DNA of 41,712 bases, taken from IMG/VR virus record IMGVR_UViG_3300021368_000689, positions 1 to 41,712 of that record; one strand, 5' to 3'. The DNA is from a virus. The position numbers and the translations under genes were made by a program. Under the pieces are notes generated by a model. The model saw nothing but the letters and a program-made list of their open reading frames with translations. It had not been told where the DNA came from and did no database searches. Shown piece after piece: positions 17,438 through 41,712 of the stretch. Every line of letters starts with the position of its first letter. Within the stretch, counting starts at the first letter, position 1.

Positions 17438-20233
17438 ATGGCAATACAGTTTTTATCAGGATTTGATTCAGATGGTAATAGTACAGTAACAGGTACGCTT
17501 TCAGTGAGTTCTATATCTAATGATAATAGTACTTATACTGGTATTCTTGTTTGGGATGGTAATGTATTAAAATATAGAACCAAAGCACAAATTAAATCTG
17601 ATATTGGTGCTGGTAGTGGTAGCATGTCAAGCTTTAATGTTAGCAATGGTACTTCAACTGGTTCTATAACTAATGGTGGTACACTAACATTAACTGCAGG
17701 TACTGGTATAACTGTTGGGCTTACTGGTTCAGGTGGTAGTGGTGTGTTTTCAATATCTGGTAACACTGCAAATGCATCTACAGTAGGAGTAGGTAATGTA
17801 AACGTAAATGGAGCAGGAGCTTATGATGGTTTACGTCTTTCATATTCAAGTGGTACAGCTACTTTAGGATTAGACCCACAAAGTTTACCTGGCTATACAG
17901 GTACTGCATCTGGTGCAGATACTGCTTCTATTAGTATGATCATTCATAATAATGATGATGTAAATAATGTAAATCAAGAGTTGGAGCTTGAAGTGCTGGG
18001 AGCAATGATTAATACTAATAATTATGTAAATAGTGTTTCATTCAACACAGGTAATGGTGTTTTAACATTAGGTAGAAGTGGTTTAAGTTCTCTTACTGTT
18101 GATTTAGATGGAAGATATGTAACAAGTTCAGGTGTAACATCTATTGCTACTACAAATGGTATTACAGGTGGTACAATAACCTCAACAGGTACTTTACAAG
18201 TAGATAGTACTGTAGTAAGAACTACAGGTACACAAAGTATTGCAGGTGAAAAAACATTTTCAAGTACAGCTTTCTTTACTAATGCAGGAGGAATAAGAAC
18301 TGACAAGGTAGGAACACAAGGTGGACAACAACTTGTACTTAATGCAGGTGAGTCAGCTTCTTATGCTACAAGTCAAACAAATGAGTTTGTTTATCTAAAT
18401 GCTGAGTCAGGAATACAGATAAATTCTTCTCCTGATAACTGGTCTTCTGGATGGGCTGGAAGAAAGACAACTACTATAAATAATACATCTGGTGATTCAT
18501 CATTTAGTAGAAATGTCAGTATGGGTGGTGATCTTACCGTTTCAGGTGGTGATATTACAATGAATGGTCCTAGAATACTTATAAGTAATTCTGCTAATGC
18601 AGGACATTTAAAACTTGGAGATACAGAAGAAGCAGATAGTGTATATCAAATGGATTTGATGGTAATGGGTACATCAAATGTAGTTTTAAGTGATGACTCA
18701 TTTATTTGTGTTTCTGGAGAAGCTAAGTTTACTCAAGGTCTTGAGGTAGGTAGTACATCACAATCTAACACCACTGTACTAGTAAGAGCGTCAGATACTA
18801 CAACAGCTTCAATAAAATTATATGGTAGCTCTCAAGGTAATGGTAATGTTTATGTAGGACAATCAGCTTCTTATGGTGGTGGTATGTTCTATAATGGAGA
18901 TGATAATCCAAATTTACCTCAAAATCCAGACACTGTTTCTTTCTATAATAAAAATAATGGAACTGAAACTGAAGTATTCAGATATCCATATAATAGTACT
19001 ACTGTTACTTTTGTAGGTGATATAAATGTTAATGGTGGAGATATAGTACTAGGCGGTACAGGTAGAATACAAGGTATTGATACTGTATCTTCAGGAACAG
19101 ATGCTGCAAACAAAACATATGTAGACAATGCTATTGCAGGTGTTCCACAAGGAACTGTTACTTCTGTAACATCTGGAAACGCAGATACAATAACAATTGG
19201 TGGTACATCAGCAGCACCTACTGTAGCAGCAAAAACAAAAGCGGTAAGTAACGGAGGAAAAGAACTTGCAACTGGAGCTGATATATATACATTTGTTGAG
19301 AGTTGGCAATTTTCAGCAGGTGGTGGAGATGTTACTGGTACAGCTCAGTTAGGTCAATCAGTAGTTTTAAGTTTAGGAAACTCTGGTGTATCAGCTGGTA
19401 GTTACACAAATGCAAACATTACAGTTGATGCAAAAGGAAGAGTTACTTCCGCTTCAAATGGTAGTAGTAGTGGTGGTATAACTGGATCTGGTACAGCTAA
19501 CTATATACCTAGATTTAGTGGTTCAACTACTTTAGCTAACAGTCTTTTATACCAAATTGGTTCTAGTAGTACACAAGGTTTAGCAAGTGCTTCAACTAAC
19601 TATTATTGGTATACAAGTGGTACTCCTTCAGCTAGTACAGGTACTGGATTTGCTATTAGATCTACAGCATCTACATATAATTCAGCTGAAATGAGAATCC
19701 AAAGTGGTGCTTCTGGAGTTAATACTACTGATGGTTTAACATTAGGTATGGGTGGTCAGTATAATTTTTACGCATATATGCAAAACCGTGAAAATGCTCA
19801 AACTTATTTTTATACCAATAATTCTATTAGAATGACCATTAAGGGAAGTAATGGTTATGTTGGTATATTAGATTCTACCCCATCATATCAACTTGATGTA
19901 AGTGGTACAATTAGAGCTACTGGTAATGTTATTGCATATTCAGATGTAAGATCAAAAGAAAATATTAAAACTATAGATTCTCCACTAGATAAAGTTTTAA
20001 AGCTTAGAGGTGTAGAGTTTAATAAAATAGGTAAGAAGAAAAAAGAAATTGGTGTTATTGCTCAAGAAATTGAAAAAGTATTACCAGAAGTTGTAAGCAC
20101 AGATGATGAAGGAATGAAGTCTGTAGCATATGGTAACATTGTGGGTGTTCTCATAGAAGCAGTAAAAGAGCAACAAAAACAAATAGAGACACTTACAGAT
20201 ATAGTAGAAGAATTAACTAAAAGAATAAAATAA
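17438..20233 (+). CDS. Tail fibre protein 2 with S74 self-cleaving chaperone domain
   Basis: The protein has 931 residues. The N-terminal MAIQFLSGFDSDGN repeats the anchor of fibre 1. The shaft is Gly/Ser/Thr-rich and shares repeat units with fibre 1 (SGVTSIATTNGITGGTITST; GTVTSVTSGNADTITIGG). The C-terminal ~100 residues form an intramolecular chaperone auto-processing domain (peptidase S74 type): YSDVRSKENIK with the expected cleavage serine S835, followed by DKVLKLRGVEF, IGVIAQEIEKVLPEVV and a terminal coiled coil (EQQKQIETLTDIVEELTKRI). In this family the domain trimerises the fibre and then cuts itself off before the conserved Ser. The gene has its own promoter-like element. The next ATG is 2 bp after the stop. 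Confidence 0.92.
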   Translation: MAIQFLSGFDSDGNSTVTGTLSVSSISNDNSTYTGILVWDGNVLKYRTKAQIKSDIGAGSGSMSSFNVSNGTSTGSITNGGTLTLTAGTGITVGLTGSGGSGVFSISGNTANASTVGVGNVNVNGAGAYDGLRLSYSSGTATLGLDPQSLPGYTGTASGADTASISMIIHNNDDVNNVNQELELEVLGAMINTNNYVNSVSFNTGNGVLTLGRSGLSSLTVDLDGRYVTSSGVTSIATTNGITGGTITSTGTLQVDSTVVRTTGTQSIAGEKTFSSTAFFTNAGGIRTDKVGTQGGQQLVLNAGESASYATSQTNEFVYLNAESGIQINSSPDNWSSGWAGRKTTTINNTSGDSSFSRNVSMGGDLTVSGGDITMNGPRILISNSANAGHLKLGDTEEADSVYQMDLMVMGTSNVVLSDDSFICVSGEAKFTQGLEVGSTSQSNTTVLVRASDTTTASIKLYGSSQGNGNVYVGQSASYGGGMFYNGDDNPNLPQNPDTVSFYNKNNGTETEVFRYPYNSTTVTFVGDINVNGGDIVLGGTGRIQGIDTVSSGTDAANKTYVDNAIAGVPQGTVTSVTSGNADTITIGGTSAAPTVAAKTKAVSNGGKELATGADIYTFVESWQFSAGGGDVTGTAQLGQSVVLSLGNSGVSAGSYTNANITVDAKGRVTSASNGSSSGGITGSGTANYIPRFSGSTTLANSLLYQIGSSSTQGLASASTNYYWYTSGTPSASTGTGFAIRSTASTYNSAEMRIQSGASGVNTTDGLTLGMGGQYNFYAYMQNRENAQTYFYTNNSIRMTIKGSNGYVGILDSTPSYQLDVSGTIRATGNVIAYSDVRSKENIKTIDSPLDKVLKLRGVEFNKIGKKKKEIGVIAQEIEKVLPEVVSTDDEGMKSVAYGNIVGVLIEAVKEQQKQIETLTDIVEELTKRIK

Positions 20234-21868: not shown

Positions 21869-24115
21869 ATGATTCCAACAAGTTCAAGTGCCTCAACTAA
21901 CGGCTGTGATAATATATCATCCAATTGCGTAGTATGGCAAGGTCCAGATATTGCTTGCATTGATTTATGCACCGGTGATACAATAAGTGATGTTACAGCA
22001 AAGCTAGCACAAAAAGTTTGTGATATAATTACAGACGGTGTTAATTGTAATCCTGATCTAACAGGCCTTGATCTTACATGTTTAAATATACAGGGTACCA
22101 CACCTACAACATTAGTTCCTGTTTTACAGGCAATGGTTAACTCTATATGTGGTACATCAAAAAGCTCTAGTCAAACACCTACACCTAGCAGTAGAATGTC
22201 AAGTCAGCAGCAAGTAGAAACAAACTTGCCAATGATGACTTTACCAGCTTGCTTACAATACAATGACCCAAGTGGTAATCCAGTTACACAATTACGCCTT
22301 GATGAATTTGCAACACTTATAGCAAATCAAGTATGTACCAACCTACAAAGTATTCAGGCTATAAATACAACTCTATCCAACTATGATGCTAGAATATCTA
22401 CACTAGAACAGTGTGTTTTACCATGTAATCAGGTTGTAGCAGAGAAACAAGTAATTCCTACTTGTATAATTAATGTAGGTCAGTTAACAGACGTATCAGT
22501 TTTACTCCTTGCTTTAGAAGTAAGGTTTTGTGCTTTAGAGACAGCTGTGGGTACTCCTGCTGCTATTAATGAAGCTATTAGTCAAACAACAATACAAGGA
22601 AGCACAGACATGCTTTCTACTAATGGAACGTATGCTAGTGTAACAGGATGGAAAAGCAGTCCTAGTTCTTTAGCACAAAGTGTTCAAAATGCATGGTCAG
22701 TAATTGATGACTTATATGCAGCAGTTACAAGTATACAAACAAACTGTTGTCCTACTGGATGTGATGCAATAACTTTTGCATATTCTACCGCAAATGTGTT
22801 AGATGCAAATGGCTTAATTGATTCTATTAACTTTGATTTTAGTGCATCAACAATTCCAAACAATTTTGTATCAGAGCCTGGTAAGTCTATTATAACACTT
22901 ACTGATGTTGATGGTAACAATACTACAGCACAAGTTAATGTACCTAATTTACAAACGTCATCTGCTGGATATAATTTCTTATTACCAGCAAATATTAATA
23001 AGTTTGGTGATATAACAGTATCTATTGATTTTGGTGTTACAGATGATATAACTACATGTGATTCAGTACAAGGTTCTGTTATAAGTAGTGTAATGCCTTG
23101 TCCGGCTTTACTTTTCTCAGGTATAACAGCAAGTGGTGCAATTTTAGAATTTACTAATATTTATGGAACATCAGCTGTATTTACAGTTAAAGTTACAGAT
23201 GCAAGTTCTGGAGTAGTAGTATTTACAGATACTCTTACTAATCAACCAGCAGGTGCATCTTCTAATATTACCGGGTTAAATGCAAACGTATTATACAATG
23301 TAGAACTAACAGTTGCTATACAAGGAGTAAGTAAAACTTGTCCTACGGCAGAACTTACTACTTCTTCTAATGCTGCACCTTGTTCAGCTGGTATGGACGT
23401 AGCATTTGTAATTGATTATTCATCTTCTATGGGAAGTGAAATTGATGATATCAAAACAGGTTTTGCATCATTAGTTAATACTATTGATACATCATCTGGA
23501 TCTAATAATTATAGAATTGGTATTGTTACTGCAGATGAAAAAGGTGGTACAGGACAAGTTCCAAATTACAATACTTGTGCAGATTATACAGCACTACCTT
23601 CAGCACAGAGAATTATTAATACTGGTACAGGAGCTACTCAATTTATTACAGCATGGGAAATGTTTGCTGATAATAATGGAACTACTGCACAAGCTCAAAT
23701 GGCTAAACTTAATCAAGGTGTAGATGGTACATGTGTTAACTTGGGTAGTGGTCAAGGTGCACCAGAACCAACTGATATGGCTATAGGTCAAATTATTGAG
23801 TCTAGTGAATTCTTAGGAGCATTTAGAACTAGTGTAGCTAAGTATGTAATTTGTATTACAGATGATTTACCAGGCGGCTCAGATGATCAATTTGGTCCTG
23901 TAGATTACGCATACATTGGAGCACTTACTACAACAGCTAATAATGCAGGTATTAAGATCTTTGTTTTAGGAGCTGGTGTTAATAAAACATACAATAACGG
24001 AGGAACAACAGTTTATCCATGGAGAGAACTAGCAATTAATACAGGTGGTAATTGGAATGTAGATGAAGATCCATCAACAATTAGTGCAGAAATAGTCTCT
24101 GGATGTGGATCATAA
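21869..24115 (+). CDS. Cys-rich VWA/Fn3 adhesin-like virion protein
   Basis: The protein has 748 residues. The N-terminal ~110 residues are Cys-rich with CVVWQGPDIACIDLCTGDTI (about 20-39), a pattern I associate with tail-linked proteins of environmental Bacteroidetes phages. A middle region contains helical segments. An Fn3-like beta sandwich spans about 410-505. A von Willebrand factor A domain spans ~510-748, with the metal-site motif D516-x-S518-x-S520 (VIDYSSSMG) and a later CITDD (D665). VWA domains bind protein or glycan ligands through a divalent cation. No signal peptide is present, as expected for a virion protein assembled in the cytoplasm. Twenty-five Cys are present. It probably projects from the tail and contacts the host; that role is inferred. 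Confidence 0.85.
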   Translation: MIPTSSSASTNGCDNISSNCVVWQGPDIACIDLCTGDTISDVTAKLAQKVCDIITDGVNCNPDLTGLDLTCLNIQGTTPTTLVPVLQAMVNSICGTSKSSSQTPTPSSRMSSQQQVETNLPMMTLPACLQYNDPSGNPVTQLRLDEFATLIANQVCTNLQSIQAINTTLSNYDARISTLEQCVLPCNQVVAEKQVIPTCIINVGQLTDVSVLLLALEVRFCALETAVGTPAAINEAISQTTIQGSTDMLSTNGTYASVTGWKSSPSSLAQSVQNAWSVIDDLYAAVTSIQTNCCPTGCDAITFAYSTANVLDANGLIDSINFDFSASTIPNNFVSEPGKSIITLTDVDGNNTTAQVNVPNLQTSSAGYNFLLPANINKFGDITVSIDFGVTDDITTCDSVQGSVISSVMPCPALLFSGITASGAILEFTNIYGTSAVFTVKVTDASSGVVVFTDTLTNQPAGASSNITGLNANVLYNVELTVAIQGVSKTCPTAELTTSSNAAPCSAGMDVAFVIDYSSSMGSEIDDIKTGFASLVNTIDTSSGSNNYRIGIVTADEKGGTGQVPNYNTCADYTALPSAQRIINTGTGATQFITAWEMFADNNGTTAQAQMAKLNQGVDGTCVNLGSGQGAPEPTDMAIGQIIESSEFLGAFRTSVAKYVICITDDLPGGSDDQFGPVDYAYIGALTTTANNAGIKIFVLGAGVNKTYNNGGTTVYPWRELAINTGGNWNVDEDPSTISAEIVSGCGS

Positions 24116-28307: not shown

Positions 28308-31300
28308 ATGGCAAAGAAAAAGTCTACAAAAGCTAATAATACAAATAAGCAGAGGGCTGCAAAAACTTCCTCAAGCGTATCTACAAATTCATTCACTAAA
28401 GGAATGAACAAAGATATCACGCCTTCTTTTGAGCCAAACACTTCTTGGTATCATGCAGTTAATGCAGCTAATAACAGTGCAGATGGTGATATTGGTGTAA
28501 TTGGAAATGAGCCAGCAAACTTACAATGTGGTGTTATCCCTTATACAGTCATAGGGGCTATACATAGATACGGAGATGAATGGATAGTTTACTCTACAGA
28601 TGACATTAGTTCAGAGATAGGTAGATTTGATGATAGTGAATGTAAGTATGAAACTATTGTAAATGATCCTTGTTTAAATTTTAACAGAAAGTTTTTAATT
28701 ACTGGAGCAGCAAAAGAAAATTTTGACTGTTCATGGCAAGTATATTGGGATGATGGAAATAACCCATCAAGATCTATGAACATTGATGATGTTCCTTACT
28801 TGCAAGATATAATTTCTGCACCAGGTGATCCTTGTATTGAATATCAAGACACTCCTTTCCTAGACTGTGAAAAAATAAGATTACACCCATTAGTTGATAC
28901 TCCTTGTATTCAGCTCACAAAGGCTACAGATGGAGGTACAATATTAAATGGTGCATATCAAGTATTTATTGCATATACAGAAAATAGTCAAGTTATAAGT
29001 GACTATATAGGTATATCTAATATTCAGACTATCTGGTCTCATGAAGGGTCCAATGGTTCCTTAGATGTGAAATTTGATGGTTTAGATAAAGATTACTTTT
29101 ACTTTGATTTGGTGTTGTTAATTAGACAACAAGGACAAATATATACAAAGAAAATAGGAAACTATAGTACAGAAACTAAATTTGTAAATATAGATTATAT
29201 AGATTCTTCTTTAACTTCTGTTTCTTTTGAAGAATTATTTAGACAATCTCCTGCTTATGAAAAATCAGAAGCAATGTATGTTGTCAATGATTATTTAATA
29301 AGGCAAGGACCTACAGAACAATTTGATTTTAACTATCAACCATTAGCAAATAATATTATAACTAATTGGGTTGTTAATGAAGTAAGTCAAGAATATTACA
29401 TACAGTCTGGGAATAAAATTGGTTTTATGAGAGATGAGCAGTATGCTTTTTTCATAAGATGGATTTACAATACAGGTGAAAGATCTTTTTCATATCATAT
29501 TCCTGGTAGAGCTCCTCAAAATTATACTTTACCAAATGGAAATGTTGTAGATGAACGTGATAATATATTTGGTACAAACACAATAGATCCTGCAGGAGAT
29601 CCTGTTTTTAAAGTTTATAATACAGGAACTATAGATTCATTAGTAACTGAAATACAACCTGATGGTTCTACAGTCATAGCTAGAGGTAAAATGGGTTACT
29701 GGGAGTCAACAGAAAAATACCCAGATAAAAAGCCAGAAGTATGGGGAGATTTATGTGGTGAGTTTATTAGACATCATAAAATGCCTAATGAGATGATAGG
29801 ACCACAGTTACATATAACAGATGGTTCTGATACGGGTATAAGAATATTAGGTGTAGAGTTTAGCAACATTGAAAGACCAAAATTTAATGACGGAACATAT
29901 ATACCAAATATTGTTGGTTATGAAATATTAAGAGGTTCAAGATTAGGTAATAAGTCCATACTTGCCAAGGGTATGTTTAAGAATATGCGTAAGTATACTT
30001 TACCAAATGCAGATAATCTTTTAGGTAATGCTCAAGGATTATATCCTAACTATCCATATAATGATTTAACACCTGACGTATTTCATGTAGCAGCTAAAAC
30101 TGAACTACAACCTGACGGCTCTATTGAAGTAACTAAGAGAAAAACAAAAGGATGTCCTAGCGGTGGTCCATTTAATGACTTTGGTGATTATCCTGCATTA
30201 ACTGGTCATACAGAAGATGTATTTACATTTCACTCACCTGAGTTAATGTTTACTGAACCATATTTAAATGCATATGAAAGTGTATTCTATGGTCAGATAT
30301 CTGGACAGTCAAATGGATATTTTACAAACTCTGAAGGTCACCCAGGATTCAAATTATTAAGAAACATTAGTGCAATACTTGGAGGTCTTGTTGGAGTTGG
30401 TTATGCTATTAGAAATATCAATGGTACACCAAATACTCAGGCAATGCCAGTACAAGGTATTAATAATGCATTTCCTGAATGGTTTATTAATGGAAAAGAA
30501 CAAAAAGGTGGTGGTGGTAATGTTACTGCAACTGTTCCACCTGCAGTAGCTACAGCATTTTTAAATAGTAGAAGTGGTGGTCAAATAAGTGGTGACAATA
30601 ATGAAAAAGGTGGACCAGCTTGGACAGATGCAAATGAATCTATACAGGATTATGTAGATGCTCAAGGTGGAGGTGGTGGTATACTAGGAAACTTTTTAGA
30701 TGGGTTATTAGATTTATTTACGGGTGGTATAAGTACATTAGGAGATGCTGCAGGTTTAAATAAAAGTACCCAGCAAAGATTGCAAGAACAAGCATTAACA
30801 AATATAGAAGAAACTGCAAGAGATCCAAATGGTGGATTAATGGGTGGTGGTGCTCAAGAAGGTGTAAGACTAGATACTTCTGAGTCAAACCTTGCTCCGT
30901 TATTTAAGAAAGCTATGGCATTAATTTTAATGCAAAAGAACATTGCTGTAGGTGGACAAGAAATTATTGATTTAATATATAATTTAAGTAGCTTTAGACA
31001 ACACGTTTTAAAATACAATTCTCACGGTTTCTTTAATGCTTTTACTTCAGGATCATTAAACAATTTATTTAGAGTAAAAAATAATGCCTCTAATTATATA
31101 GGTTCTTCTTTTCAAACATTTGATAATAACCAATATAAAATAAATAATTTATTTAGACCAACTACGGTAGCTATTTCTACGGCACAACCTATACCTTCTA
31201 ACTATGGTGTACAAGATACATCAAGATTTGCACTGGGAGGACGTGTACTTATGAATGGTACTACTCAAACAAATTGGAATGGTAAATCAGATGAAGATAG

Positions 31301-34300
31301 ATTATTAAGCATTGAAGGTCCGTATAGTGAGCCAATATCTGCATTATATGGTGCATTAAAATTTAATATAGACAATCAGTATGGTCAGCTTGATGGTATA
31401 AGACAAGTACCAATGAGAGGATGTGTAGAAAGAATAGATTTTACATTACCGGATGCATATAAGTACACAAGCAAACCTATTTTTGGAGGTGATGTATTTA
31501 TTGCTAGATATACTGAAAAATGTATAATGCCAATTTTTACAGACTACTTAATGGGTCAGTATGATGGTTATCCTTATGATTATTTTAAAAGATATAATCT
31601 ACCATATCCTAGATTCTGGATTAATAGTAGAAAGTTTGATATGGCAGGAATGGCAGCAACTGTATCAAGTTTAGGATTAAATCAAGTTTTTGGTACAGGT
31701 CCTCTTGATCAAGCTACAGTTCCTAATGAAATGTATTATTTAGATAGAGGAGACACTTGTGGTTGGGGATTATTATCATTTATGGGTGATGAATTAAATA
31801 GTGCATTTGCAATGAACCATGCATATATGTATTCTCATATTAATGGTATTAATGATTTTTATGTAGAGTCAGAAATTAATTTACCTTATAGAGATTATGA
31901 AGAACCTAAAGAAAGAAGATTTTATGAAACATATACATACAATGACTTAGGAGATTTATTTCATGCAGAAATTCAGAAGTATGATAATTTTTATAAATAT
32001 GATGAATCACTTAGCCCTTCAAAATTTGTTACACAAAATACTACGTTTGCACAGATACAGTCAAAGGAGTATGATCCAACTATTGCAGAAACATGCTTTA
32101 CATCATATCCAAAGAGACTTATATATTCTTTACAAGCTAATGAAGAAGATAAAAGGGATTATTGGAGACAATACTTATATGCAAACTACAAGGACTTTAA
32201 GAACAGAGTATCAGTTATAAAATCATATAGTAAGACGGGGGCAATAATGTTTTTCCCTTATCAGTCACCTCAGCTTTTGCAAGGTATTGATACTTTGAGA
32301 ACTGATGCTAACACAAAGATTACTATAGGTGATGGAGGCTTATTTAATCAGAAATTGCAAAATATAGTAAACTCTGATCTATCTAATGAGTATGGATCAT
32401 TAGAAAGCCACAGAGGTGTTATGAATACACCTGCTGGTTTATTTTATATTTCACAAGCTCAAGGTAAGATCTTCCAATTTACACCAGCAAAAGGTTTAGA
32501 AGCAATATCTAATGCTGGTATGAAGTGGTGGTTTAATAAATACTTACCATCTAGATTTATAAGACAATTCCCTGAATCAGAAGAAACAGAATGGGCAGAC
32601 AACCCTGTAGTTGGTGTTGGTTGTCAAGTAATCTATGATCCAAATGATGACATAGTTTACTTTATGAAAAAAGACTATTCTTTAAAACCAGAATGGATTG
32701 CAAATGCAACATTTACAGATAGAGCAGTTAAACCTATATCTATAGACACAGGATTACCAAAACCAATATTAGTAGACATAGGAGATCCTATATACTTTAA
32801 TGATTGCTCTTGGACAGTAAGTTATGACCCTAAAGCAAAAGCATGGATATCATTTCATGATTGGCATCCTGAGTTTGCTTTACCTAGCATTAATCATTTC
32901 TTTACTACTAAGACAATAGATAGTCAAGTACCAATTTGTCCACCAGGATATAGTTTTAATCCTACAACTGGACTATGTGAGTTTATTCAAAATATACAAG
33001 AGCCTGCGGATATATTAGTAGAAGAAATAGCAGCAACAATTAGTGGTGGTCCACAGAACTGTTTGCTAGATATTGTTATTGCACTTGATTCTTCAGGTAG
33101 TACTAATAGTGGATGTAATGGTAATAATCCTAATTATACACCAATGGTATTTGACGCAACAGGAGCTCAAGTACCTGGTACAGGTGTTCTTGGAAACAAT
33201 TGTAGATCATCAGCAGAATTAAGATGGTTAGATGTATTTTTAAATAATCCATTGATAAATGATGCTTTAGATGCAGGCTCAATGCAAATTGGTTTTACAA
33301 ATTGGGCTACTAATTCAAATCAATATCTTGTAAATAATACATCTTTATATACTGGTGTTGGCGGTGGAGGTACATGGAATAATGGAGTAGACAGCGTTTC
33401 AATAATTAATTGGTATACTGCTAATTGGAATGTACCAAACCCTAATAATACAAGTGCTAATAATGCACTTGGAACAGCATCACCAACATCAGGAAATGGA
33501 GCATTATCTTTATTAAACAATAAAACTCAATCTCAATTATCTGCTAGTTATCCTGCAAGGTCACAAGATTCAACATTTAAACAAATAGTAATTTGTATAA
33601 CTGATGGTACTAACGGTACTGCACCAAACCCTGCTGTCAGTCAATTTCAAACTCCATTAGCTGGTGGAGCTAATAATGGTGCTTGGGCTAATGCTAATTT
33701 AGGTGATCCTAATAAACAAGAAATATGGGGAGGTTTTGTAGGTAATGGTGATAATGGTATACCTGGTAATGCAGCATTACTAAACTCTATTAGTGGTACA
33801 ACTTATTCACAACCTGGAGTACCTTCTGCTCCATTTCAGTTTACAACAGATGCTTTAGACTCTGCAGGATTGGATGCAACTGCAAATGCAATTGCTGGTG
33901 CGGTTTGTGATATACCATTTACTTGCTCATGTCCGGCTGGATATGAATTAATTTATGTAGGAGCAAATGGATTTAACGATGCTGTAACTGGTGTGTGTGA
34001 TGATTTAACTCCACCAGTATGTAGAAAAGCATCTTGTAGCTGTCCACCTCCTCCTACAAACTTTACAAGTACATTAATAGGAACGTGTCCTGATACTTTA
34101 CCTGAGTTAGCTTATATAGGTGATCCAAACTGGGTAGACCCTACACCACCTATATGTGATTACTACTATGCAGATACAGTAATACCTAACTATAGAGTTG
34201 GTTCATTCTGGAGACATAATGTAAGATGTGACTTGTTTGCTAACTATTATGGTGTTAGCTATCCTTGGGAAATAGAATTAATTTCTAATACTGGTCAAGC

Positions 34301-34817
34301 TGTCAATACAATTAGAAGTATAGAGTATCAATTAGAAACGTATGTATACAAAGGTGAGCCAGAGTATAACATGTGTGGTGGTGATAAATGGGAAGATTTA
34401 CTATTTAATTTTGATAGAGCTATTATTTATAATAATGATCAAGTATCAGGTTTATTAAATATTACATCACAACCATTTAATGATCCATGGGGTGAATTGC
34501 AATATCCTATTATTGCACCTAACAGCATGACAATATTAGCATCTAAAGTAGAACACAAATTTAGATTTAATCAGTTCTGGGATATTACAAATGATAGAGG
34601 TGAGTTTAGCAATGCAGAACAATCTGTGTTTGATACACAATGTAATGGTTACATAAGACCACTTAATGCAACTAACCTAGATTACTTTAAACCAGAGACA
34701 CAGCGTAAGAAGTTTAGACATTATTCTAATCACGTTCTTTTAAGAAGACAAGAATCAGGAGATAGAAAAATGTTACTAAGATTAGAGAATACTAAGTTAT
34801 TACTATCAATGAGATAA
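28308..34817 (+). CDS. Giant muzzle/tail-hub-like protein with internal VWA domain
   Basis: The protein has 2169 residues. The N-terminal NSFTKGMNKDITPSFEPNTS (about 27-46), then WYHAVNAANNSADGDIGVIG, matches the start of muzzle or tail-hub proteins of crAss-like phages. The first ~1550 residues are repetitive beta-rich sequence plausible for a large propeller-like body, with Gly-rich insertions near 735-880. A VWA domain spans ~1585-1865, with D1594-x-S1596-x-S1598 (ALDSSGS) and CITDG (D1766). Cys-rich turns (CPAGYELIYVGANG, CSCPPPP) follow it. The C-terminal ~280 residues return to structural beta sequence ending in a basic helix. In the family this protein closes the tail tip. The VWA insertion probably binds a ligand outside the tip, which is an inference. 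The next gene overlaps by 1 bp. Confidence 0.8.
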   Translation: MAKKKSTKANNTNKQRAAKTSSSVSTNSFTKGMNKDITPSFEPNTSWYHAVNAANNSADGDIGVIGNEPANLQCGVIPYTVIGAIHRYGDEWIVYSTDDISSEIGRFDDSECKYETIVNDPCLNFNRKFLITGAAKENFDCSWQVYWDDGNNPSRSMNIDDVPYLQDIISAPGDPCIEYQDTPFLDCEKIRLHPLVDTPCIQLTKATDGGTILNGAYQVFIAYTENSQVISDYIGISNIQTIWSHEGSNGSLDVKFDGLDKDYFYFDLVLLIRQQGQIYTKKIGNYSTETKFVNIDYIDSSLTSVSFEELFRQSPAYEKSEAMYVVNDYLIRQGPTEQFDFNYQPLANNIITNWVVNEVSQEYYIQSGNKIGFMRDEQYAFFIRWIYNTGERSFSYHIPGRAPQNYTLPNGNVVDERDNIFGTNTIDPAGDPVFKVYNTGTIDSLVTEIQPDGSTVIARGKMGYWESTEKYPDKKPEVWGDLCGEFIRHHKMPNEMIGPQLHITDGSDTGIRILGVEFSNIERPKFNDGTYIPNIVGYEILRGSRLGNKSILAKGMFKNMRKYTLPNADNLLGNAQGLYPNYPYNDLTPDVFHVAAKTELQPDGSIEVTKRKTKGCPSGGPFNDFGDYPALTGHTEDVFTFHSPELMFTEPYLNAYESVFYGQISGQSNGYFTNSEGHPGFKLLRNISAILGGLVGVGYAIRNINGTPNTQAMPVQGINNAFPEWFINGKEQKGGGGNVTATVPPAVATAFLNSRSGGQISGDNNEKGGPAWTDANESIQDYVDAQGGGGGILGNFLDGLLDLFTGGISTLGDAAGLNKSTQQRLQEQALTNIEETARDPNGGLMGGGAQEGVRLDTSESNLAPLFKKAMALILMQKNIAVGGQEIIDLIYNLSSFRQHVLKYNSHGFFNAFTSGSLNNLFRVKNNASNYIGSSFQTFDNNQYKINNLFRPTTVAISTAQPIPSNYGVQDTSRFALGGRVLMNGTTQTNWNGKSDEDRLLSIEGPYSEPISALYGALKFNIDNQYGQLDGIRQVPMRGCVERIDFTLPDAYKYTSKPIFGGDVFIARYTEKCIMPIFTDYLMGQYDGYPYDYFKRYNLPYPRFWINSRKFDMAGMAATVSSLGLNQVFGTGPLDQATVPNEMYYLDRGDTCGWGLLSFMGDELNSAFAMNHAYMYSHINGINDFYVESEINLPYRDYEEPKERRFYETYTYNDLGDLFHAEIQKYDNFYKYDESLSPSKFVTQNTTFAQIQSKEYDPTIAETCFTSYPKRLIYSLQANEEDKRDYWRQYLYANYKDFKNRVSVIKSYSKTGAIMFFPYQSPQLLQGIDTLRTDANTKITIGDGGLFNQKLQNIVNSDLSNEYGSLESHRGVMNTPAGLFYISQAQGKIFQFTPAKGLEAISNAGMKWWFNKYLPSRFIRQFPESEETEWADNPVVGVGCQVIYDPNDDIVYFMKKDYSLKPEWIANATFTDRAVKPISIDTGLPKPILVDIGDPIYFNDCSWTVSYDPKAKAWISFHDWHPEFALPSINHFFTTKTIDSQVPICPPGYSFNPTTGLCEFIQNIQEPADILVEEIAATISGGPQNCLLDIVIALDSSGSTNSGCNGNNPNYTPMVFDATGAQVPGTGVLGNNCRSSAELRWLDVFLNNPLINDALDAGSMQIGFTNWATNSNQYLVNNTSLYTGVGGGGTWNNGVDSVSIINWYTANWNVPNPNNTSANNALGTASPTSGNGALSLLNNKTQSQLSASYPARSQDSTFKQIVICITDGTNGTAPNPAVSQFQTPLAGGANNGAWANANLGDPNKQEIWGGFVGNGDNGIPGNAALLNSISGTTYSQPGVPSAPFQFTTDALDSAGLDATANAIAGAVCDIPFTCSCPAGYELIYVGANGFNDAVTGVCDDLTPPVCRKASCSCPPPPTNFTSTLIGTCPDTLPELAYIGDPNWVDPTPPICDYYYADTVIPNYRVGSFWRHNVRCDLFANYYGVSYPWEIELISNTGQAVNTIRSIEYQLETYVYKGEPEYNMCGGDKWEDLLFNFDRAIIYNNDQVSGLLNITSQPFNDPWGELQYPIIAPNSMTILASKVEHKFRFNQFWDITNDRGEFSNAEQSVFDTQCNGYIRPLNATNLDYFKPETQRKKFRHYSNHVLLRRQESGDRKMLLRLENTKLLLSMR

Positions 34818-37800
34818 TGAAGAAGAAGTTTACAACAATAGAATCAAGAGGGTTGCCTGGAGGACCAAATGAACAGTTTACATACATCACTGGTGTGTTC
34901 TCTATGGATGGATATAAGTCAGATAGTCCTGATGTAAACAACCCTTTTAATATTATACCTTCAGGTGATATAACTATGAAAGGTGTAGACTTTCCTGTTA
35001 TGGGTATAGATAACTTAGGTAACAGCAAGATGATGGAGCCAGGTAAAGACTATGAGTTTCCTGGTGATATGGTATTTGAAGTACCAGCAATGAAGCTTGG
35101 TGGTGGAGGCAGATGCTGGCCAGGATTTACACCTGTTCCAGGAAAAAAAGCATATAGTAAAGGAAGTTGTAAGAGAGCCTCAGACGGTATGGAATTACCT
35201 ATGGCACAGAAAGGAATGTTTGATTTTGATTTTAGTGATGTTAAAGAAGATATTAGATCTATAGGTGATTATATGCAGGGTAAACAAGGTTTTGTACCAG
35301 ATATACTTACTGATAACAAACCCACCAAGAAACAACTAAGAACAGTAGCATCTTATTTAAGCCCTAAAAACTGGGAGTATACTGGTAAACCTTTACCTAA
35401 TTATAATGAGTATAATAGTTTTGATGATGCTTTTGAAGCAGCAAGAAATGATTTAGGTAAACAACAATTCTTTTTATATGATGGTAAAAGACATACCACA
35501 AACTATAGAGGAGAAACAGCAGATCCAGAAACAAAAGAAATATTAAGAAGATTAAAAGAGGAACTTCCTCCTGAACAGTATGAAATATTTGAAGGTGTAT
35601 GGATACAATCACATCAACCTAATTTGTCAACAGAAGCTGACACAAAAGATTTTTATGTACCGTTTTCTCCAGCAGGGATTGGTTTTGATGATTTACCTGA
35701 TACAAGCAAAGGAAGAAGACCTCATGTAAATGTATTAGATCAAAATGAAACAGTTTATCAAAGAAAGTATGATAATCCAGAATACCAAGCATTAAAATTT
35801 TTAGATGAGCTTGTTCATAGTATACAACTAAAGGATAAAGGAACTGCTGAGATGCTTAAAGATTTAATTCTAGACTCTTCTATGCACGGTTCACACGGAG
35901 CTTATTCTACAGAAGGTACAATGGAAAATGAAGCACATAAAAAAATGTATCCTGAATTAAGAGATTATTTTTTAGGTATTGGTGAAAAACCTGATTTTTT
36001 AAATAAATCACAAGAAGGTGGAGCTACTATATCCCAATATGAAGAACCAGCATGGTATGAAAAAGCAGTTGATTATTTAGCAAGTCCTATGACAGCTTTA
36101 GGTTATACTGCTAGAAATCAAGATTTACCAGATAGCTTGCCCATTAATGTAGAGAATAGAAACACATTTGATAGTATTATTGATGCAGTTAATCCATTTG
36201 CTTGGGCAAAGTATGCAGCATCTGCAAAACGTAATGTAGATCAAGGGGAATACCTTGATGCAGGATTTGATGCATTAGGTGCTATTCCAATTGTTCCTGC
36301 ATGGTTAGCAAAAGGAAAGAATGTAGCTAAAAATTTACCACTAGATAAACTTGATGATTTAGTTGAAGTAGTTACTACAAATGGGTCAGTAAAAAAGATA
36401 CCAAGGAAAGATGCCATAAAATTAAATAGAGTTGAAGATGCTAATGTAAGTAATACATCTTTTAGTAATTATGAAGATGGAAACTGGTTTGCAGATGAAC
36501 TAAGTGAGTTTTATGTTAATAGAACAAAAAGTGCTGTGGGTCCTGTTGATTCAAAGTATGATCATATAACGAGGTATCTTTATCCAGAAGACCCTAGAAG
36601 ATTAATAACAATGTACATGGATCCATCAGATGCTAAAAACTTTAATGTAGCTAAAGGTACAGCAACTGAACGAGCACTAAACATGAGTGGTGGTATGGGT
36701 AATATGCCACATCCAAAAGAATATGTTATTCCTCCTGCTCTTGTTAAACAAATAAGAGAAACTGGTAAAATTCCAGGTGCTTCTACTTTTATAGGTGATG
36801 CTGATCAAGTTATGAAAAATTTGTCTGATTTTTATAAGAAGTATGGTGGGGATATTAGTGAATTAGATAAAAAGCAATTAGGAGGATTATTAAAACAATT
36901 AAAACCATATGCTAAAAAAGGACTTAAATATTTAGATGACTTTGTAAAAAATAACTTTAAGGAAGCAGACAATGCTAAAAATTTTGAATTTAAAACTTTA
37001 CCCGGCATTGAATCTAAACAATTAATAAAAGTTGTGGATGGTCAATTTAGTCAAATTGATTACCAACATCTTATTCCAACAGCAGATGAAATTGCAGATA
37101 TAGGTAAAAGAACTAGAGAAAGATTATTAACTGATAAGTTTATAAAAAATAATATGGAAGCTACTGGAAACAGTAGGGATGAGATTATAGGTTATGTTGA
37201 TGATTTTGTAAAAGAGTTTGAAAATTCTGTTCTTCAATTTGGTAAGTTAGCTCCTGATACTGGTGGTTTATATAGCAAAGGTAAAATTATTATAGATCCA
37301 ACTAATCCATATATTACTAAAAATAAAGTACTAGGAACTCTTGAACATGAAATAGAACACATGTTTAGTGATGTAGCAAGACAAGGAAGTGATTTGTACA
37401 AGCATCCAGTTTTTAAACTTGTTGACAGGACGGGAAGACCTGATGAAGCTCTAGTAAAAAATATAAGCCAACCTTTTGAACAACAGGTTAGATTTAGAAA
37501 AGCACTTAGTTGGTTAGAAAAAAATGCAGGTTTAAAACCAGGCGGGAATGTAACAGATGATCAAGTTAAAAAATTAACAGATGCAATAACAAATTGGTCT
37601 AAAGAAGCAGGTGAAGATTTTGCAGGCAAAGGTGGATTTGCTGATGTACAACATCTTTTTAGTAATCTAGATGCAAATCAGTTTTTAAAGGAAGGTCAGT
37701 ATCTACTGCCAAATGCAAAACAAACAGCAGATATAACCAAACCCAATGTGAGAAATGCAATAAAAGATATGTTAAATAAAACATATGCGGCTATACCAAT

Positions 37801-38524
37801 TGTAGGGGCAGGAACAGCTGCGGCAACACAAGAATATCAAGGTGGAGGAGAAAAGACTTTAAACTTTGATAATATCTTAGATTACATAGTTGATACTAGA
37901 GGTGGAGATAGAGATACTTGGGGAGCTGCTGCAGATACAATAGCTTTTCATGAATCTAGTCCATGGTATAGAATGGACCCAAGAGCAAGACAATACCCTA
38001 GTGGTCCTGGTAGAGGTTTATTTCAGTTTGAAGGTCCATCATTAGAAACGGCACAAAAAAGATATAAGAATATTGCTAAGGCCAAAAATTTTAATATTGA
38101 TCCTGCAATCTTAAATGTAAAGTCAGCAGATGAATTAACACCGGAACAGCAATATACTTTATTCTTTGCAAATTTAATTGAGTCAAAAGCAACATTAGCT
38201 GATTTTGCAAAAGGTGATTTAAGCTTAGAAGATTTGTGGTTGCAAGGACATAAAAATATAGAAAAACCTGGTGATAGGGCTTCTTTTTTAGAAAGTAAAA
38301 GTGCAGCAGAAAAAGAAGGTATCAAAGGTGGATATACATCATTTAAGCCTGGTGGTGAATTAAGTGTTTATGACGTATATAAAAAGTATGTAATGGGTGG
38401 TGCTAATGATGAAGCAAGTAAAGATATATATGATAGATTAAATAGAATACACTATATGGATGCAAAGAGCTCAGGAATGTCAGTACCTAACTACATTCTT
38501 ACACATATGATTAAGAGTTCTTAA
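34817..38524 (+). CDS. Multidomain cargo/ejection protein with zinc-peptidase motif and lytic-transglycosylase-like domain
   Basis: The protein has 1235 residues. The N-terminal ~130 residues (PSGDITMKGVDFPVMGIDNL, EPGKDYEFPGD) resemble leader regions of crAss-like cargo proteins. Residues ~150-390 form a domain containing FLDELVHSIQ (D330-E-L-V-H334), which looks like a zincin HExxH whose first His is Asp, with a later NEAH. A second region has LEHEIEHMFSD with an intact HExxH (H844-E-I-E-H848). The last ~230 residues begin near AADTIAFHESS (E1046, candidate catalytic Glu) with GRGLFQFEG, typical of lysozyme or lytic-transglycosylase folds. The protein would be ejected with DNA and open the peptidoglycan. 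GG-E segments occur at ~400, 1008 and 1177. Peptidase activity is unproven. Confidence 0.78.
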   Translation: MKKKFTTIESRGLPGGPNEQFTYITGVFSMDGYKSDSPDVNNPFNIIPSGDITMKGVDFPVMGIDNLGNSKMMEPGKDYEFPGDMVFEVPAMKLGGGGRCWPGFTPVPGKKAYSKGSCKRASDGMELPMAQKGMFDFDFSDVKEDIRSIGDYMQGKQGFVPDILTDNKPTKKQLRTVASYLSPKNWEYTGKPLPNYNEYNSFDDAFEAARNDLGKQQFFLYDGKRHTTNYRGETADPETKEILRRLKEELPPEQYEIFEGVWIQSHQPNLSTEADTKDFYVPFSPAGIGFDDLPDTSKGRRPHVNVLDQNETVYQRKYDNPEYQALKFLDELVHSIQLKDKGTAEMLKDLILDSSMHGSHGAYSTEGTMENEAHKKMYPELRDYFLGIGEKPDFLNKSQEGGATISQYEEPAWYEKAVDYLASPMTALGYTARNQDLPDSLPINVENRNTFDSIIDAVNPFAWAKYAASAKRNVDQGEYLDAGFDALGAIPIVPAWLAKGKNVAKNLPLDKLDDLVEVVTTNGSVKKIPRKDAIKLNRVEDANVSNTSFSNYEDGNWFADELSEFYVNRTKSAVGPVDSKYDHITRYLYPEDPRRLITMYMDPSDAKNFNVAKGTATERALNMSGGMGNMPHPKEYVIPPALVKQIRETGKIPGASTFIGDADQVMKNLSDFYKKYGGDISELDKKQLGGLLKQLKPYAKKGLKYLDDFVKNNFKEADNAKNFEFKTLPGIESKQLIKVVDGQFSQIDYQHLIPTADEIADIGKRTRERLLTDKFIKNNMEATGNSRDEIIGYVDDFVKEFENSVLQFGKLAPDTGGLYSKGKIIIDPTNPYITKNKVLGTLEHEIEHMFSDVARQGSDLYKHPVFKLVDRTGRPDEALVKNISQPFEQQVRFRKALSWLEKNAGLKPGGNVTDDQVKKLTDAITNWSKEAGEDFAGKGGFADVQHLFSNLDANQFLKEGQYLLPNAKQTADITKPNVRNAIKDMLNKTYAAIPIVGAGTAAATQEYQGGGEKTLNFDNILDYIVDTRGGDRDTWGAAADTIAFHESSPWYRMDPRARQYPSGPGRGLFQFEGPSLETAQKRYKNIAKAKNFNIDPAILNVKSADELTPEQQYTLFFANLIESKATLADFAKGDLSLEDLWLQGHKNIEKPGDRASFLESKSAAEKEGIKGGYTSFKPGGELSVYDVYKKYVMGGANDEASKDIYDRLNRIHYMDAKSSGMSVPNYILTHMIKSS

Positions 38525-38578: not shown

Positions 38579-40462
38579 ATGAGTGTGAATCTAAACAAAA
38601 TAAGTTTAAAACAGATGGGAGGAGAAGGTCAACCACAAGTTGATCCTCAAGTTATGGAGATATCCCAAACTATTAGTGCTTCCGTACAAGACGGTCAAAG
38701 CCCGCAAGATGTTGTTGCTATGCTTTTACAAAATCAAGTAGATCAACAACTTATTGCACAAGCTTTAATGATGGTTGGTATGGTAGAAGAAGACATCATG
38801 ACTTTATTTGAGCAAATAGAAAGAAGCACTCAACCATCAAAACCAGAAGAAGTTAATGCTAATCCTGAGCTACTTGCAAGGAATGAAAGCATTGCTGAGC
38901 AAGAAGAACAAGCTGCCCAACAAGATCCAATGATGGGGATGGCAGAATCTGGTATAGAAATAAAACCAGAAAACAAAGGTAAATTTACAGCATGGGCTAA
39001 GAAGCGTGGTATGACTGTAAAAGAAGCTTATAGAAAAGTATTAGCTAATAAAGATAAGTATCCACCATCTATAGTAAAGATGGCAAACTTTGCACGTAAT
39101 GCTTCTAAATGGAAAAAAGCTAAAGAAGGTATAGAGTTAAAAGGAAAGTTTGTAAATGGTGTTTATATACCAGATGAAGATGAAATAACTACAGCAGCTC
39201 TTACAAGTGAAGATGCATTAAAAGCAAACTTGGCTAGAAAAGATAGCTATTACATGAGAGATCCTCAACTTTCTGTTATGCCTGTTATGCCTCCAAAAAC
39301 AGTTAACCCATTGTTTGATATTATTTCTACAGTTGGAACTGTATATAATGATATTAAAGGAGAAACTTCTGATTGGGATGAATCAATGGCTGCATATAAA
39401 GCTGCTATACCAGGTTATTATAATTACAATGTAGATACCTCAAATGTTTATTCTGCAGAAAATCAAGCAAAAATCAAAGATTGGGCTGCTGCTCAAAAAC
39501 AAGAATGGGAGTATCAAACTGCTGAAAGTAAAGCAAGAGCTGATAAACAAGTTCAAAGTTATCTTGGTTCTGGTAATCCTACTTTTCAAGAATGGTTAGA
39601 AGATAACCCTGATGTAACAGATATAAATACAGCACAAGCAATGTATGATGCTGTCTATAAAAAATTATTTGGTGGTCAAATCTTACAAGGTGGTGGTCAA
39701 CCTTTTGTTGGTCCTCCAACTTTTGAACAATATCAAGCAGATCAAATGTTTGGGTCATCTGGTGTAGTTGTAGGTGATACACCTGAATTTGATGCTGATG
39801 CAGATGGTATACCTGATTATATAGATATTGACGGTGGACAAGGTACGGGTGTACCAGCTTATGGCACTGTAGATAGACCTGATGTAGATGCAATGTTTGG
39901 AGAGATTGAAACTCAACCAGATGTATCTATTGGATTAGGTGATGCTATAACAGGAGGTTTAGACGCATTAGGAGATAACCCATACTTTAGAGCAACTGCA
40001 TCTATACTTGGAGGAGTATCAGACATAGCAGGTTTAGGAAATAGATTATTTTTTGATAATAAACTATTCAATGAAGCAATGGATGAGCAAGAAACTAGGT
40101 CTGGAGCTGATTATAAATTTGCTACAAAAACTTCTGGAGCAAGAAGTAAAGGACAAAGAAGAGTATTAGATGGAGTTCTTGGTTCTGAAGCAGACAGAGT
40201 AACAGGTAACTACTTTGCTTTTGCAGGAAGCCCTTATAGTTTTACAGCTGAAGAGGGTGGTGAAACATTTAAACAACATATGATGTTTGATCCTAAAACA
40301 GGTAAAGGTTATAAAGCTAATGTACCAGCTGATCATGAGAGAATGGCTGAGATGGGATACTTACATAAAGATGAAATGAAACAAGGTGGTGAAGTAGTAG
40401 AATTATCACAAGATATGATAGCACAACTAATTGCAGCTGGTGCTGACATAGAAATATTATAA
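38579..40462 (+). CDS. Cargo-like virion protein 2
   Basis: The protein has 627 residues. The Gln-rich helical N-terminus is followed by KGKFTAWAKKRGMTVKEAYR (about 133-152) with NFARNASKW. I associate this basic motif with large virion proteins of many crAss-like and other Bacteroidetes phages. The middle includes Gly-rich linkers and an acidic DADADGIPDYIDIDGG stretch (~402-417), which looks like a calcium-binding thrombospondin-3-type repeat. The end carries EEGGETFKQHMMFD and KQGGEVVELSQDM. No enzymatic domain is visible. Its place between two other large cargo-like genes suggests packaging inside the head or tail and ejection with DNA; that is inferred. Confidence 0.75.
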   Translation: MSVNLNKISLKQMGGEGQPQVDPQVMEISQTISASVQDGQSPQDVVAMLLQNQVDQQLIAQALMMVGMVEEDIMTLFEQIERSTQPSKPEEVNANPELLARNESIAEQEEQAAQQDPMMGMAESGIEIKPENKGKFTAWAKKRGMTVKEAYRKVLANKDKYPPSIVKMANFARNASKWKKAKEGIELKGKFVNGVYIPDEDEITTAALTSEDALKANLARKDSYYMRDPQLSVMPVMPPKTVNPLFDIISTVGTVYNDIKGETSDWDESMAAYKAAIPGYYNYNVDTSNVYSAENQAKIKDWAAAQKQEWEYQTAESKARADKQVQSYLGSGNPTFQEWLEDNPDVTDINTAQAMYDAVYKKLFGGQILQGGGQPFVGPPTFEQYQADQMFGSSGVVVGDTPEFDADADGIPDYIDIDGGQGTGVPAYGTVDRPDVDAMFGEIETQPDVSIGLGDAITGGLDALGDNPYFRATASILGGVSDIAGLGNRLFFDNKLFNEAMDEQETRSGADYKFATKTSGARSKGQRRVLDGVLGSEADRVTGNYFAFAGSPYSFTAEEGGETFKQHMMFDPKTGKGYKANVPADHERMAEMGYLHKDEMKQGGEVVELSQDMIAQLIAAGADIEIL

Positions 40463-40464
40463 TT

Positions 40465-41712
40465 ATGGCAAAAGTTAAGATAAATAAATTACCAAAAGGT
40501 TATGAGCTAGTTGATGGCAAAGTCAAAAAGAAGGCTTTGAAAAGAGATGGTGGTATGGTAACCGGTGATCAAGCTGACTACGGTTTGGTTACAACTCCCC
40601 AAGAGTTTTATGGAGATACAAACTTCAATAACAATGAAGATAACTCTGTAAGATACAGCTTGTCTAGTGTACCTAGAGAAGATGCTAATATAGAAGCTGA
40701 AGGTGGAGAAACTGTTTTAACAGATTTAAGTGGTAATGGTCAGTTTGGATTATATGATATTACAGGCCCAAGACACTCTCAAGGTGGTGTACCTATGTTT
40801 TTGCCAGAACAGTCTTTTGTTTTTTCTGATACTAGTTCTATGAGAATGGGTAGAGATGAGTTAGCAGAGTTTGGTATAGAATCAAGAAAGAAAAAAACAC
40901 CAGCAGATGTTTCAAGAAAGTTTAGACTTAATAATTATTTAGCTGAAATAAATGATCAGTATGCAGATGAAATATCTACAAGAAGTGCTGAGATGATGTT
41001 GAGCAAAAATATGAATAGCTTATCCAAATTAGCATTTGGTCAAGAGCTTAAAAAAGGTTTTGAGGATGGTGTACCTTTAGCAGCATTTCCATACTTACAA
41101 CAACAAGGAATTGATCCTATAGATTTTACTGCAAAGATAGAAGAGCAAACCAGACAGCAAGCTGAATTAAACTTTATTGCTTCTTTACCTCCTGAGCAAC
41201 AAGATCAAATTTTGCGGTTACAAGCTATGATGCAAAATATTGAAAATCCTGAGCAAGGTCAAGTTCAACAATCTCCACAAGAACAAAGTGTACCTGATTC
41301 AGAAGGTGCACCTAACACTGCTGATGTAGCTATTGCTAATGAAGAGCTAACTGCTACAGTTAAAGAAGGTGGTGAATTAGATCAATATCAACAAAAGGGA
41401 GAAGTCAAAATCCAAAATGTAGGATTAAGAAATCCAAAACCTGGAGAAAGTCTTAATGACTACTATAAGGATATTGGAATGGAAAAGATGATGAAGGATG
41501 ATGAAGCAGGTAACTTTGTATGGAATACAGAAACTATGAGTTTTGTACAAGTTGATGAACAATCTAGAAATGAGGGTAATGAAGCTCCTGTTCAAAATGA
41601 AGAAGGATCTAATAATCCTGAAAGTGAACAAGTGACTACAGAAAATCCATTGCCACAAAATCATCCTAAGTATGATTTATTTAATGAGAAATTAAAAGCT
41701 GGTTATAAGCTG
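40465..41712 (+). CDS. Cargo-like virion protein 3 (runs off the window)
   Basis: The open frame starts at ATG 40465, 2 bp after the previous stop, and remains open for 416 codons to the window end. It begins MAKVKINKLPKGYELVDGKV. Residues ~76-125 carry EGGETVLTDLSGNGQFGLYD, then HSQGGVPMFLPEQSFVFSD. This is the pattern GGE...H-S-x-G-G-V...S-F-V-F-S-D that I recognise in crAss-like cargo proteins. A Gln/Glu-rich helical linker follows (about 215-300), then another EGGEL (~300). The rest of the domain architecture lies outside the window. Confidence 0.75.
   Translation, partial: MAKVKINKLPKGYELVDGKVKKKALKRDGGMVTGDQADYGLVTTPQEFYGDTNFNNNEDNSVRYSLSSVPREDANIEAEGGETVLTDLSGNGQFGLYDITGPRHSQGGVPMFLPEQSFVFSDTSSMRMGRDELAEFGIESRKKKTPADVSRKFRLNNYLAEINDQYADEISTRSAEMMLSKNMNSLSKLAFGQELKKGFEDGVPLAAFPYLQQQGIDPIDFTAKIEEQTRQQAELNFIASLPPEQQDQILRLQAMMQNIENPEQGQVQQSPQEQSVPDSEGAPNTADVAIANEELTATVKEGGELDQYQQKGEVKIQNVGLRNPKPGESLNDYYKDIGMEKMMKDDEAGNFVWNTETMSFVQVDEQSRNEGNEAPVQNEEGSNNPESEQVTTENPLPQNHPKYDLFNEKLKAGYKL

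Follow-up and report, generated by a model that had tools for sequence, protein, structure and literature searches.

What a phage gains from one very large chain that seems to join peptidase-like and wall-lytic regions is the question raised by an ORF in the virus record IMGVR_UViG_3300021368_000689. The window analyzed is the whole 41.7-kb sequence (41,712 nucleotides), possibly a fragment of a larger genome, and features hallmarks of crAss-like phages (ring proteins PF25702 and PF24228; portal, terminase and capsid genes). The ORF (34817-38524, plus strand) encodes 1235 aa; its reading frame, described in an earlier note made from the letters alone, was re-checked and confirmed. The start codon overlaps by 1 nt (TAATG) the upstream 2169-aa ORF, and the N-terminus of the protein agrees with the start of the family described below. 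The ORF is flanked by the following genes:

28308..34817, plus strand: gene of a muzzle-like tail protein of 2169 aa, directly upstream of the 1235-aa ORF (phrog_37948/phrog_15100, virion structural)
38579..40462, plus strand: downstream cargo gene (phmmer 7.9e-8 to crAss001 C1, gp45; NKGKFTA region common to both)
40465..41712, plus strand: next cargo-type gene, running off the window end (E=4.5e-4 to phi17:2 gp041, 351-456)

The muzzle-like protein matches gp043 of the cultured Cellulophaga phage phi17:2 at 2e-47, and the crAss001 muzzle gp44 weakly. The ORFs starting at 38579 and 40465 look, from their sequence, like split cargo, and the order muzzle, 1235-aa-type gene, C1-like cargo genes is kept. 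Elsewhere in the window, the gene pair 14932-17343 / 17438-20233 includes a tail-fibre-like gene product bearing a Peptidase_S74 chaperone domain; over its first ~30 residues this product shares 53% identity with the beginning of the upstream gene's product. Stretches resembling von Willebrand A were spotted by eye in the products of 21869-24115 and 28308-34817 (DVAFVIDYSSSMGS and DIVIALDSSGS, respectively).

The main feature of the protein, missed by the earlier note, is that a constant N-domain and a constant C-tag enclose freely exchanged modules.

34841..35101, plus strand: constant N-domain, residues 9-95, with which almost every complete C-tag protein begins; present also in phi17:2 gp041 (hhalign 97.6%)
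38339..38521, plus strand: constant C-tag, residues 1175-1235 (alignment A4)

The C-terminal 71 residues of the 1235-aa protein, used as scan query, detected 63 C-tag loci, yielding 49 proteins with an intact start, 539 to 2276 aa long, all ending in the C-tag. The gene preceding them is large, and encodes a muzzle wherever readable; in two loci (L055 and L066) the N-domain-type start and the C-tag reside on adjacent genes. The shortest relative (L080, 539 aa) is made up of N-domain, SLT and C-tag. According to local profiles, 41/49 relatives carry a wall-related domain, binding domains such as LysM being counted. Pfam searches of the interiors of 31 relatives identified LysM (13/31), SLT (12/31), YkuD (8/31), PG_binding_1 (6/31) and ART-PolyVal (2/31) domains, and Peptidase_M91 in one; ADP-ribosyltransferase exoenzyme domains also occur among the C-tag proteins. 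HExxH motifs number 26, against 0.56 expected, and are carried by 18 of 44 nonredundant relatives (~40%), so that proteins of this slot can do without a zincin. The muzzle of L002 is 83% identical to that of the window at its C-terminus, yet the adjoining L002 protein has neither the zincin module nor the domain termed D2 below, while phages of 61-64% muzzle identity again have the zincin module, at 65% identity; modules are therefore exchanged between fixed ends. A Cys4 zinc-ribbon-like stretch (KCxxCxW...CHKCG) was noticed in the L002, L004, L036 and L070 proteins, at about residues 95-230, right before a short peptide which recurs at module boundaries.

35195..35215, plus strand: boundary peptide LPMAQKG, residues 127-133, family pattern [LVIM]PxAQxG

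This pattern occurs 63 times in the 44 nonredundant relatives, against 0.15 copies expected; 21 copies lie at the end of the N-domain and 42 are internal, several right before known modules (in the L004 protein the peptide starts at residues 223, 494 and 712). The pattern is also found in downstream cargo genes, and spans three consecutive cargo genes. GG doublets, tried as boundary marks, are not enriched. The peptide may serve as linker, packaging mark or cut site.

The motifs reported earlier in the 1235-aa protein are all in place (DELVH at 330-334, HEIEH at 844-848, FHESS at 1044-1048, GRGLFQFEG at 1065-1073). HEIEH belongs to a large module:

36866..37813, plus strand: gluzincin-type metallopeptidase module, residues 684-999, with H844, E845, H848 and E888 (alignments A2 and A13)

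A HEIEH motif arises in about 1.6% of shuffles of the 1235-aa protein. The columns invariant in alignment A13, the most distant rows of which are 20-25% identical to the window protein, are G817, H844, E845, H848, E888, R892 and one Leu. The view of HEIEH as an intact zincin-type site is thus borne out, both His, the Glu and the downstream E888 being kept in distant relatives. E888 as third zinc ligand fits the zincins of polyvalent proteins, in which a Glu downstream of HExxH plays this role (PMC5512222). In AF2 models a short beta hairpin precedes the helix which bears HEIEH (835-855), and E888 lies on another predicted helix (877-904). A HEIEH devoid of a third ligand, the outcome which the earlier note had set against its own reading, is at odds with an invariant E888 in a downstream helix, but this geometry comes from low-confidence AF2; confidence is low over the whole zincin region, and both fold and site geometry are to be taken as unproven. 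The zincin family profile matches proabylysin in the PDB at E=0.016, over a strand and the HExxH helix; the match to the MPTase domain of N4-like vRNAP is weak and not significant (E=2.4). Foldseek with a 731-residue model gave no PDB match with E<1, and the whole protein, searched by sequence in Pfam, PHROG, NCBIfam and the PDB, had no significant matches across the zincin, D2 and beta-rich modules. Structure alignment by VIA-align covered mostly helical parts of the model, and missing zincin or ADP-ribosyltransferase (ART) rows are uninformative there. As judged from conserved residues, the module holds a gluzincin-type site and is a predicted peptidase.

DELVH had been taken for a zincin which lost its first His. 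It belongs to a family of its own:

35474..35989, plus strand: D2, residues 220-391, of a zincin-like family lacking the first His, with E331, H334, Q337, E370 and H374 (alignment A14)

The motif in itself means little, xExxH being present in 68% of shuffles of the 1235-aa protein (not significant), and its significance derives from family conservation. Position 330 varies among D, S, N, E, I, M and V across the seven rows of the alignment and is never His, and D2 is not classed as a canonical HExxH zincin for this reason; E331, H334, Q337, Y363, G367, E370, A373 and H374 are constant. No family member has the first His; all keep instead H374, four residues (one turn) past E370, and therefore no decay took place in the window protein. 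A permuted metal site formed by H334, E370 and H374 is plausible. The AF2 model of D2 alone has a pLDDT of 56, with helices at 321-341 and 369-385; Foldseek found no match to it, and nothing else matches this model. Scans detected D2 relatives in several other phages, none in bacterial genomes and deposited phages. The family (xExxH...ExxAH) is also found at L101 2986-5010, L106 4437-6464, L107 3-1598 and L109 2986-5010, in phages not crAss-like in appearance, where the neighbours of the D2 genes are presumably T4-type baseplate-like genes, by recognition alone. In L100 4969-9405, a histidine-phosphatase-like domain (residues 71-226; alpha-ribazole phosphatase family, 9e-16) is fused in one protein with D2, N-domain-like and zincin stretches.

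The region 400-750, formerly described as a linker of unknown fold, holds at least two modules, one of which is modelled with good confidence:

36026..36325, plus strand: exchangeable module of hydrophobic character, residues 404-503, hydropathy highest at 480-498
36353..36856, plus strand: compact beta-rich exchangeable module, residues 513-680, ADP-ribosyltransferase-like pattern (alignment A3)

The most hydrophobic stretch of the 1235-aa protein falls within the former. In the latter, AF2 pLDDT is ~80-94 over most of the module, and R538, E540, GNWF (555-558), Y566, R595 and E635 are invariant. An Arg on a strand, a GxWF strand leading into a Tyr-bearing helix, and a Glu on a late strand together resemble ADP-ribosyltransferases in sequence pattern. 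Pfam, PDB and hhalign lend no support to ART identity; hhalign comparisons to ART families were negative, but the same test also missed the kinship of two accepted ART families, and its negative outcome carries no information.

The C-terminal part had been assigned to lysozyme or transglycosylase folds on account of its FHESS and GRGLFQFEG motifs.

37853..38341, plus strand: lysozyme/lytic-transglycosylase-like domain, residues 1013-1175, candidate catalytic E1046

The domain recurs in L002, L056 and L023, with an invariant HES...GRG(L/M)FQFE pattern, from which E1046 is proposed as candidate catalytic residue. The family matches PHROG 3108, and scores 16-20 bits (19.9 for residues 1013-1175) to Phage_lysozyme2 (PF18013, phage tail lysozyme), below the curated cutoff of 28.2. 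It also matches the stand-alone, 190-aa gp41 of Methylophilales phage MEP301, itself a weak match to SLT and PF18013. The one good BFVD match to the model (A0A8B6T3V8, E=1.2e-5) has its length of 190 aa in common with MEP301 gp41. Structure alignment (VIA-align) picked MltE, MltC, phiKZ gp144, phi6 lysin and 9udh at weak Z values (3.3-4.2). Weak lines jointly favour a lysozyme or a transglycosylase; the earlier assignment gains from the PF18013 scores, the Z values and MEP301 gp41, and is tempered by the curated cutoff.

In phi17:2 the equivalent slot after the muzzle is occupied by gp042, which matches PF18013 at 9e-32. Its counterpart in Cellulophaga phage phi4:1 is gp041, while phi4:1 gp040 corresponds to phi17:2 gp041, bearer of the N-domain; phi4:1 gp041 and gp040 both carry a virion-protein annotation based on MS/MS proteomics. 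Of all the evidence for virion-borne wall enzymes encoded in this slot, this is the strongest, although indirect for the window protein. phi17:2 gp042 and phi4:1 gp041 are like the 1235-aa protein in their position after the muzzle and in the wall-lytic domain, which in the window protein is a putative one. In phi17:2, in contrast, functions are split, gp042 being the lysozyme and gp041 carrying the N-domain, and neither gp042 nor gp041 matches the C-tag and zincin profiles.

In crAss001 the gene directly after the muzzle encodes C1 (gp45, PF25725 crAss_CARG1), a demonstrated capsid and tail cargo (PMC10172136). The position is the same as that of the window gene, but the NKGKFTA region of gp45 is matched by the next window gene and not by the 1235-aa protein, and gp45 does not match N-domain, C-tag, zincin and lysozyme profiles. 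The 1235-aa protein was rejected as C1 homologue, as it does not match PF25725, to which gp45 scores 2.3e-66; the N-domain as portal-bound C1 domain was unsupported against both the PDB and gp45. The crAss001 structure paper describes cargo proteins and an ejection model and names no wall enzyme, its text mentioning neither lysozyme nor peptidoglycan (PMC10172136). Direct transfer of this model is unjustified, because neither N-domain nor C-tag was found in gp45.

Closer likeness is found to polyvalent proteins, which combine zincin, ART and lysozyme domains, and for which zincin processing has been proposed (PMC5512222). Shared are the very large chain, the HExxH zincin with a downstream Glu, a lysozyme/transglycosylase-like domain, the ART domains (here in relatives) and the location beside virion genes. 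The combination of several unrelated activities in one chain, by which polyvalent proteins are defined, is suggested here by conserved zincin ligands, a muralytic-like domain and further modules. Constant N-domain and C-tag, the fixed slot after the muzzle and a D2 without the first His set the window protein apart. The 2017 survey of polyvalent proteins does not mention crAss (PMC5512222). Like the MPTase of N4-like vRNAP, which belongs to an ejected giant protein, the window zincin has an HExxH, but the window protein has no RNA polymerase.

We hold it likely (probability about 0.75) that the protein is a packed and ejected cargo of polyvalent type, which opens the wall, the zincin of which most likely processes its own chain, and the interior modules of which are exchangeable. 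The protein would be packed in the head or tail of this crAss-like virion, N-domain and C-tag serving as putative address labels for packaging, and would be ejected early through the muzzle; delivery into the host with the DNA we infer from gene position and the phi4:1 MS/MS annotation. In the periplasm the lysozyme/transglycosylase-like domain is predicted to open peptidoglycan locally. The HEIEH gluzincin may then process its own chain or a neighbouring cargo protein, as precedent suggests, and thereby free modules, the cutting of a host protein being a second possibility. D2, the hydrophobic segment, the beta-rich domain, the zincin and the lysozyme-like domain are exchangeable between phages. 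The earlier idea of one chain uniting a zincin and a lyase-like domain survives through the conserved ligands, the muralytic likeness and the cargo block, stripped of its DELVH and linker readings. The opening of the wall, also proposed there, is consistent with the position in the cargo block, while subsequent cleavage of a host or phage protein stays conjectural; self-processing seems at least as likely.

That the zincin is rather an effector, cutting after entry a host protein involved for example in defence or transcription, and not its own chain, we consider somewhat unlikely. Interior modules turn over quickly, as would be expected of host-targeted weapons; Peptidase_M91, which Pfam describes as an effector protein family, is present in one relative, and ART-PolyVal and ADP-ribosyltransferase exoenzyme domains are found in others. 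Polyvalent precedent, on the other hand, leans to processing, as with P1 DdrB (PMC5512222), and zincin-bearing members have about twice as many internal boundary peptides per residue (rate ratio 2.1; p 0.002 by permutation, with no control for phylogeny), although other members have them too. A bolder version of self-processing, in which the ends are labels, [LVIM]PxAQxG peptides are cut points for embedded zincins, and D2 is a metallopeptidase-like domain with a permuted site, is unlikely as a whole; if true, one injected chain would give rise to a wall enzyme and separate intracellular effectors. Quite improbable is a structural or tail protein whose single enzyme is that acting on the wall, zincin and D2 being non-catalytic scaffold or packaging domains. 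The MPTase region of N4 is needed for encapsidation and the vRNAP is packaged unprocessed (PMC5512222), and D2 lacks the canonical first His; yet at 20-25% identity all three zinc ligands, the general base and R892 have stayed invariant, none of which a pure scaffold would need. An endolysin with added domains, acting in late lysis at the end of infection, would account for the lysozyme-like domain and its stand-alone homologue in MEP301, but is very improbable given the position in the muzzle/cargo block, the MS/MS-annotated virion proteins at the equivalent phi4:1 position, the hydrophobic and effector-like modules, and boundary peptides common to other cargo genes.

crAss-like phages are among the most abundant phages known. 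The novelty of the present locus is the fixed-end, exchangeable-interior design in crAss-like phages, along with a D2 family without the first His; no report of this C-tag protein family was found within the limited set of literature searched. The route of crAss-like phages through host peptidoglycan is left unexplained by the crAss001 structure paper (PMC10172136), and the slot after the muzzle provides, with its domains delimited, a candidate for the enzyme by which environmental crAss-like phages enter. The constant ends are candidate packaging signals, and the interiors a catalogue of candidate injected effectors.
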